From assembly GCF_039233145.1 (NCBI RefSeq), contig NZ_CP136419.1:904001-968000 (forward strand): a stretch of 64,000 nucleotides of DNA, written 5' to 3'. The stretch is from Moorella humiferrea (GTDB lineage Bacteria; Bacillota; DSM-521; Neomoorellales; Neomoorellaceae). Both the position numbers and the translations under genes were made by a program. Numbering within the stretch: the stretch's first letter is position 1; every line of letters begins with the position of its first letter. Shown piece after piece: positions 21,587 through 32,010 of the stretch. A model generated the notes under the pieces. That model ran no database searches. It was not told the DNA's origin and saw only the letters and a program-made list of their open reading frames with translations.

Positions 21587-21593
21587 TACATTA

Positions 21594-21706
21594 ACGTCCT
21601 TCGGGGTGAGGTGCAATTCCTTACCGGCGGTAAAAGCCCGCGAGCCGTATGGCAGACCCGGTGCAATTCCGGGGCCGACAGTGAAAGTCTGGATGGGAGA
21701 AGGCGT
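21594..21706 (+). promoter_or_regulatory. FMN riboswitch (RFN element)
   Basis: The conserved RFN elements are in order: CTTCGGGGTGAGGTG, ACCGGCGGTAAA with AGCCCGCGAGC, GGTGCAATTCC, GGCCGACAGTGAAAGTC and GGATGGGAGAAGG. FMN binding is known to favour the downstream terminator, so the rib genes are shut off when flavin is plentiful. Limits are approximate. Confidence 0.95.
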
Positions 21707-21725
21707 TGTATCTTTTCTGTTATCT

Positions 21726-30893: not shown

Positions 30894-31061
30894 ATGGAAG
30901 TAAAATGTGCCCTCTGCGGCCGTAAAGAGGAAATTACCAAGGTACATAAAGATTACCGCCGGTTGGCGAAGGATAAAAATGCAGTTTATACCTGCGAAAT
31001 CTGCCGCGCCCGGTTGCGCTACCAGGCCCTGCAGACCCAGAAACCCGAAAAACCTTTATAA
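30894..31061 (+). CDS. YlaI-like DUF2197 zinc-ribbon protein, 55 aa
   Basis: ATG at 30894 follows GGGGAAGGTGAG. The product has CALCG near the start and CEIC near residue 33, a two-pair zinc ribbon, with YRRLAKDKNAVYTC and RARLRYQAL between, the layout of DUF2197 (B. subtilis YlaI). The function of the family is unknown. A strong promoter for the next gene begins 8 bases after its stop, so it is transcribed separately. Confidence 0.85.
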   Translation: MEVKCALCGRKEEITKVHKDYRRLAKDKNAVYTCEICRARLRYQALQTQKPEKPL

Positions 31062-31068
31062 GAGACAA

Positions 31069-31097
31069 TTGACAGCGAAAAAACTATATAGTATAAT
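31069..31097 (+). promoter_or_regulatory. Consensus sigma-A promoter of the selenoprotein operon
   Basis: TTGACA (31069-31074) and TATAAT (31092-31097) with 17-base spacing: a full consensus match. The start point would be near 31104, just before the GAGGAGGG ribosome site. Confidence 0.9.
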
Positions 31098-31119
31098 CTT
31101 AGCCGAGGAGGGAAAAAAG

Positions 31120-31401
31120 ATGGAAATTCGCATTAGCCCCAAAGCCGAGCAATATATCAAAGAGAAATCCGATACCATTACTATTAAATTAGAAATGTGC
31201 GGCGGTTGAGCCGGGATATCCATTCGACCTGCCGTGCATGCAGGTGCGCCGGCCGATGTGAAAAACTTTATTTTACAGCAGGTAAACGGTTTAAAGGTAT
31301 ATCTTCAGAAAGGGATAAAGGCCTCCCGCGGTCTTGATGTGGAGCTCGTGGGTTTTGGCCCCTTTAAACAACTGGTAGTCGATGGTGTCCAAAATTATTA
31401 A
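31120..31401 (+). CDS. HesB-like selenoprotein, UGA at codon 30 read as selenocysteine
   Basis: GAGGAGGG lies before the ATG at 31120. The frame reads 29 codons ending KLEMCGG, meets TGA at 31207-31209, and then continues in the same frame with AGISIRPAVHAGAPADVKNF ... VELVGFGPFKQLVVDGVQNY to a TAA at 31399-31401, 93 codons in all. The two halves make one HesB/IscA-like protein with a Cys-x-x-Sec redox motif (Cys27, Sec30). A HesB-like selenoprotein family is known in anaerobic bacteria. A hairpin follows the UGA at the right distance. Thioredoxin is 21 bases downstream, in keeping with a redox role. Ordinary gene callers would split or drop it. Confidence 0.9.
31207..31250 (+). promoter_or_regulatory. 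Candidate bacterial SECIS element
   Basis: Starting at the UGA (31207), a stem ACCTGC (31227-31232) / GCAGGT (31240-31245) carries a 7-base loop CGTGCAT with an apical GU, about 24-30 bases after the UGA. Bacterial SECIS hairpins are known to lie just downstream of UGA with G/U in the apical loop. Confidence 0.65.
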
Positions 31402-31422: not shown

Positions 31423-31749
31423 ATGAGCAAAGCCATTAATGTTGACGGCAGTGCCTTTGAAGCCGAGGTTCTGTCGGCACCGTTACCGGTGGTGGTCGAT
31501 TTTTGGGCGGCCTGGTGCGGTCCTTGCCGGATGATGGCCCCGGTGCTGGATCAACTGGCCGAAGACTATGCCGGCAATGTAAAATTCACCAAGGTTAACG
31601 TTGATGAAAACCAGGAATTGGCGGCCCGTTACGGTATTATGAGTATTCCCACCCTTGTCATCTTTAAGGACGGCCGGGAAGTGGGGCGAGTCATCGGCTA
31701 TATGCCCAAGGATAAACTCAAGGAGCAGTTGGACGCGGCCATAAATTAA
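31423..31749 (+). CDS. trxA: Thioredoxin
   Basis: Classic thioredoxin fold with the active site WCGPC (FWAAWCGPCRMMAPVL), the PTLVIFKDG cis-proline loop and a C-terminal GYMPKDKLKEQL helix. ATG at 31423 with GGAGGG upstream; 108 aa. It lies 21 bases after the selenoprotein gene and is probably cotranscribed, suggesting it reduces, or works beside, the Cys-x-x-Sec protein. Confidence 0.96.
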   Translation: MSKAINVDGSAFEAEVLSAPLPVVVDFWAAWCGPCRMMAPVLDQLAEDYAGNVKFTKVNVDENQELAARYGIMSIPTLVIFKDGREVGRVIGYMPKDKLKEQLDAAIN

Positions 31750-31776: not shown

Positions 31777-31965
31777 ATGGCCCGCCGTGCCTATATTGAC
31801 GTTGCACGCTGTGACGGGTATGAAGGTTGCCCGGCTATGCAGATTTGCCCAACTAAATCTTTTTTACGTGAAGAGAAGGATGAACCCTGGTTTATTGGTC
31901 CGACCTGTCTTGGGTGCGGCCGCTGTGTAATGGCCTGCGACAGGCAGGCCATCCGTTTAGTTTAG
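31777..31965 (+). CDS. Small 4Fe-4S ferredoxin-type protein, 62 aa
   Basis: The C-terminal half has a complete CxxCxxCxxxC motif (CLGCGRCVMAC). The N-terminal half has a looser set (RCDGYEGCPAMQICP), spaced like an incomplete second cluster. ACGGAGAGG precedes the ATG. Gene order thioredoxin-ferredoxin plus terminator suggests one redox operon from 31069 on. The partner enzyme is not evident. Confidence 0.85.
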   Translation: MARRAYIDVARCDGYEGCPAMQICPTKSFLREEKDEPWFIGPTCLGCGRCVMACDRQAIRLV

Positions 31966-32010
31966 CAAGGGTCACCGGTTATAAATTACCGGGACCCTTG
32001 TTTTTTATTT
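31966..32010 (+). terminator. Terminator of the selenoprotein-thioredoxin-ferredoxin operon
   Basis: CAAGGGTC / GGGACCCTTG-type 8-bp stem extended by CCGGT/ACCGG (one bulged A), followed by TTTTTTATTTT. Confidence 0.9.

Follow-up and report, generated by a model that had tools for sequence, protein, structure and literature searches.

An in-frame UGA gene of the CC/Se motif (seleno)protein family beside thioredoxin in Moorella humiferrea

The locus analysed here raises two connected questions: does an in-frame TGA in a short reading frame of Moorella humiferrea end a gene or encode selenocysteine (Sec), and what might the full-length product do? The window, i.e., the whole stretch of 64,000 nucleotides that was analysed, covers positions 904001–968000 of a single-contig 2.67-Mb genome. 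Under the standard code, the ORF tool ends the frame at TGA 31207–31209. Read through, the frame runs from ATG 31120 over 29 codons, the TGA and 63 further codons to TAA 31399–31401, forming the one chain that had originally been predicted: MEIRISPKAEQYIKEKSDTITIKLEMCGGUAGISIRPAVHAGAPADVKNFILQQVNGLKVYLQKGIKASRGLDVELVGFGPFKQLVVDGVQNY. This 93-residue product possesses a single cysteine (Cys27) and a single Sec (Sec30). Its closest named relatives, from Moorella mulderi, M. stamsii and M. sulfitireducens, are 90–94% identical at this gene. We regard it as almost certain that 31120–31401 is one gene in which the UGA is read as Sec, and that its product is a selenoprotein of the family described by the model NF041239.

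Table 1. Features of the selenoprotein locus, in window coordinates.
Feature	Position	Strand	Basis
Consensus promoter TTGACA-17-TATAAT	31069..31097	+	12/12 consensus positions; a match, not proof of activity
Ribosome-binding site GAGGAGGG	31105..31112	+	Sequence; 7 nt before ATG
Selenoprotein gene of the CC/Se motif family; product of 93 residues including Sec30	31120..31401	+	NF041239, read-through translation, homologues
Cys27-Gly-Gly-Sec30 redox motif; Sec codon TGA 31207–31209	31198..31209	+	Sequence, translation, alignment
bSECIS hairpin, loop CGUGCAU	31227..31245	+	Fold, covariation, loss in Cys members
trxA, thioredoxin, likely redox partner	31423..31749	+	TIGR01068, 134 bits (cut-off 96.8); adjacency
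Small 4Fe-4S ferredoxin-like protein	31777..31965	+	Fer4-type Pfam matches, all just under curated cut-offs
Intrinsic terminator closing the three-gene unit	about 31964..32002	+	−25.5 kcal/mol (z −6.7), followed by a U-rich run

The full-consensus promoter and the downstream trxA and ferredoxin genes, all named in the original prediction, were found (Table 1), and the ferredoxin-like gene is kept in this place in the genus. A gene for a small CxxC protein containing DUF2197 (30894–31061) lies directly upstream of the selenoprotein gene and is likewise kept in the genus. Elsewhere in the window there is an FMN riboswitch (21592–21708; 112.5 bits).

The host genome carries the complete set of Sec genes to which the original prediction had pointed: selA (617 bits), selB (378 bits, above the cut-off), selD (408 bits) and selC, the last as a tRNA-Sec scoring 71.9 bits (gathering score 47) and called by ARAGORN as tRNA-SeC with anticodon tca. 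The host selD (locus L019) itself contains one in-frame TGA, and SelD is therefore probably a selenoprotein too.

Conservation extends past the UGA. In ten Moorella-type sequences compared, the TGA is invariant (10/10), dN/dS averages 0.085 upstream of this codon and 0.057 downstream, and third codon positions make up 56 of the 83 variable sites beyond it; judged from these substitutions, protein-level selection is equally strong on either side. Homologues do not stop at residue 29, as about 80 family members continue past the UGA, and the expected cysteine is present at position 30 in many non-Sec relatives.

The stem-loop claimed to follow the UGA, with six base pairs and a seven-base loop, lies where it had been placed: A31227–C31232 pairs with G31240–U31245 around the 7-nt loop CGUGCAU (−8.6 kcal/mol), just 3′ of the UGA and with the conserved loop G expected of a SECIS element. 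Its energy is ordinary by itself (z −1.59; 14 of 200 shuffles are as good), and folding one 51-nt piece containing the UGA and the sequence behind it was uninformative (z −1.18); the significance of the hairpin comes from conservation rather than from energy. The conserved form is CCUGC-CGUGNNN-GCAGG, with the loop 23 nt after the UGA and the same register in most Sec members. Five or more of the six stem positions are paired in 63 of 77 Sec members vs 3 of 20 non-Sec rows, and the loop reads CGTG in 62 of 77 vs 1 of 20; three of the rows scored as non-Sec have their Sec one or more columns off and therefore work against the contrast. The hairpin is thus lost in Cys members.

Codon choice within the hairpin follows the same pattern. 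The third base of codon 38, for Ala or Thr, is C in all 62 cases, and 63 of 72 Val39 codons are GTG, whereas only 188 of the 675 Val codons in these genes are GTG (GTT:GTC:GTA:GTG = 190:107:190:188). Each of the five core pairs forms in all 30 sequences compared in register (100%), a figure that partly results from picking these rows for an in-register hairpin; the comparison with Cys members is free of that selection. These 30 sequences contain 15 double-sided changes, compared with 4.1 ± 1.5 in shuffles, and none of 500 shuffles reaches 15. Given the machinery and this conservation, SelB and Sec-tRNA(UCA) would decode UGA30 via the hairpin 23 nt downstream.

The product scores 98.2 bits against NF041239, "CC/Se motif family (seleno)protein" (Moor_selen_rel; cut-off 40), with residues 1–90 aligned to model positions 1–91. 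Of 398 genomes sampled from the phylum, 85 have matches over the cut-off, a spread far above chance, and most of the matches contain a TGA. About 100 family members were extracted and aligned; 80 Sec and 17 non-Sec members were examined, and 14 of the latter have CC at the site.

The original prediction called the product HesB-like. As the name of a known family this label was rejected on model cut-offs, and what survives of the claim is the fold and a deep common ancestry. TIGR01911 (HesB-like selenoprotein) gives no match to the protein at E up to 1, NF038090 (IscA_HesB_Se) scores 12.4 bits against a cut-off of 85, and PF01521 (Fe-S_biosyn) does not match the protein. When 199 genomes of the phylum were searched with PF01521, the host genome gave no match, and two CC relatives reach 13.6–15.0 bits on this model against a gathering score of 26.3.

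Nor would such a gene be generally missed in routine annotation, as had been supposed: an NCBI (seleno)protein model and a RefSeq selenoprotein entry now exist. A 2026 review lists a "CC/Se motif family selenoprotein" (NF041239, CxxU) as a hypothetical protein predicted in Moorella thermoacetica, gives its RefSeq selenoprotein entry, and treats HesB-like selenoproteins as a separate entry (PMC13188914); a 2022 review contains the same M. thermoacetica entry without a family (PMC9312934). The M. thermoacetica list of 2006 comprises SelD, two FdhA, HdrA, FrhD and glutaredoxin, and the CC/Se protein is absent from it (PMC1794560). The 2026 review cites two papers for the CC/Se family (PMC2398784 and PMC5029168), in whose main texts Moorella does not appear. 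Both the gene and its standing as a selenoprotein are thus already catalogued and the family is known as a predicted selenoprotein, which makes the finding itself ordinary.

The fold of the protein can be approached by structure prediction. An AlphaFold model, built on an alignment of only nine rows of natural sequences, has a pLDDT of 87.6 and the element order E-H-E-E-E-E-E-E, with Sec30 in the turn between strands 19–29 and 32–41. The top seven Foldseek hits in the PDB are all IscA, SufA or DsrR (E 2e-4). With VIA-align, IscA reaches Z 9.0 over 87 residues (1r94, 1x0g) and the ten best rows all have the IscA fold, whereas the best unrelated chain reaches Z 3.0. Profile comparison by hhalign relates the family to HesB-like selenoproteins (96.8%, E 2e-10), placing Sec on Sec, and to canonical IscA (94.7%), while the best of 20 column-shuffled profiles gives E 0.099; the family profile run against PDB sequences produced chance matches only. 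The protein is therefore very probably, as modelled, a single IscA/HesB-type domain, in which Sec30 would occupy the β2–β3 turn at the place of Sec in HesB-like selenoproteins. Weak HMM matches hinted at kinship with bacilliredoxins, but this was dropped in view of the IscA-type fold predicted.

The C-terminal Cys-x-Cys cluster ligands of IscA are absent from the 93-residue chain, and since this Cys-Gly-Cys is missing, carriage of an Fe–S cluster in the IscA manner is unlikely. A true A-type (IscA/HesB) carrier, using Sec30 and Cys27 as ligands and delivering clusters to the ferredoxin whose gene is the second one downstream, would suit the predicted fold and the ferredoxin-like gene downstream in the genus. 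However, one Cys and one Sec in the whole protein, relatives with no cysteine or with only two Sec (see below) and the unmatched PF01521 speak against it. Moreover, outside the window's own family the ferredoxin was detected at a single locus, of the same order, whereas linkage to redox partners recurs in other lineages. We consider this reading improbable.

The adjacency to thioredoxin, from which a partner had been proposed, is not confined to this locus. In every Moorella-type locus long enough to show it, trxA lies about 16–40 bp downstream. A thioredoxin–thioredoxin reductase fusion (TIGR01292, 375.6 bits, plus a Trx domain) is encoded directly upstream of the family gene in L052/L053/L062, and a thioredoxin-like protein followed by a DsbD/CcdA-type membrane protein is encoded downstream in L051/L065/L066. 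On the family tree, which has few columns and many open forks, these appear as three separate gains in three lineages. Weaker evidence comes from L025 and its kin, where trxA follows some 0.9–1.05 kb downstream, past a regulator gene on the opposite strand. In L070/L076/L079, a gene similar to CoA-disulfide reductase is located upstream (493 bits, below the cut-off of 578.8). Outside those lineages a thioredoxin gene adjoins only a minority of family members, and the partner is therefore not shared by the whole family. No relative is encoded in any plasmid record.

The partner cysteine is variable in position. Relative to Sec it is found at −3, as in the CGGU motif that the original prediction had read as Cys-x-x-Sec and that translation and alignment bear out, in 26 members, at +1 in 20, at +3 in nine and at −1 in three. 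Thirteen Sec members, including the close relative L024, have no cysteine at all, which means that a Cys27–Sec30 bond is not essential to the family, and five relatives have only two Sec.

The most surprising by-product of the analysis is a set of relatives with consecutive Sec residues. In L117–L121, two consecutive in-frame TGA codons (Sec-Sec) stand where Cys members have CC, with a hairpin 24–27 nt after the first TGA; the gene upstream in L118–L121 is of the aldehyde:ferredoxin-oxidoreductase type (AFOR_C, 365 bits on a cluster representative). When these proteins are read as CC, two of three pass NF041239 (45.6 and 44.6 bits; L118 scores 35.9). The family is given with one Sec in PMC13188914. 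Further two-TGA loci are present in the phylum genome survey.

Other unusual copies were also observed. A second paralogue within the window's genus (L094 1–4301 of G237, and L104 of G013) carries Ala in place of Sec and Val or Ile in place of Cys27; with the chain conserved (63.5 bits), the redox site has been lost. Family-like copies in L080 and G383:C13 contain a TAA or TAG close to where the match begins and represent decayed copies or wrong starts.

For the window protein, a thioredoxin-linked selenol/thiol redox role on an IscA-type scaffold is suggested by gene position and motif, and we think it rather likely. Sec30 would attack an oxidised substrate, a selenenylsulfide with Cys27 or a mixed bond would form next, and the thioredoxin encoded next door would reset Sec30. 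Taken as a whole, the explanation that we favour, a Sec-decoded NF041239 protein of IscA-type fold with a thioredoxin-linked redox role, appears probable.

Alternatively, the protein might bind or reduce a metalloid or organometal (As, Se or Hg species), with vicinal CC/UC/CU/UU or CxxU as the ligand site. Many members do have vicinal CC, UC or UU motifs, and some are clustered with ArsR-type regulators and an SBF-family transporter. Yet neither the window nor most lineages show this context, and the window protein has no vicinal pair, which leaves such a function unlikely here. The members located near ArsR-type regulators and/or an SBF-family transporter (L088, L086, L110, L080) are mostly of the CC kind, and their neighbourhood is possibly a metalloid-resistance setting.

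The idea that the UGA is a true stop, yielding a 29-residue peptide or marking a decaying gene with occasional read-through at most, agrees with the standard-code end of the frame but is refuted in substance, and keeps next to no likelihood, in view of purifying selection past the UGA, the covarying SECIS, the full Sec machinery and the Cys found at this position in many non-Sec relatives.

Returning to the favoured redox reading, we tentatively suggest, short of calling it probable, that NF041239 is a separate redox-adapted branch of IscA/HesB proteins in which a selenol replaces cluster ligation. In such a branch the partner Cys would have moved repeatedly (CxxU, UC, CU, UxxC or Sec alone), one sub-branch would have acquired UU, and a thioredoxin-linked oxidoreductase would have arisen on a fold other than that of thioredoxin. 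Most selenoproteins are thioredoxin-like, and an IscA-type scaffold performing Sec thiol redox chemistry would, if true, be a useful exception. The analysis adds a modest amount that is new, namely the probable fold and ancestry of a family that PMC13188914 and PMC9312934 give only as a hypothetical protein, together with a likely electron partner, SECIS covariation, a recurrent thioredoxin linkage and double-Sec relatives.

Among known systems, the bacilliredoxins BrxA/BrxB show a short, weak likeness to the window protein around CGGU-AG..RPA (15 bits, far below the cut-off); they have the thioredoxin fold, unlike the IscA fold predicted here. The A-type proteins IscA, SufA and DsrR (PF01521) share the fold of the predicted model (Z 8.1–9.0), and the window protein differs from them in having neither their C-terminal Cys-Gly-Cys nor a PF01521 match. 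HesB-like selenoproteins (TIGR01911, UxGP) agree with it in predicted fold and order of elements, with Sec aligned to Sec; however, in place of their GU(G/S)GP it has GUAG, along with a different conserved stretch, PAVxAGxP. From NF041239 the window protein shows no difference: it is a member of this family, matching the model over its full length and possessing the CxxU motif as listed in PMC13188914.
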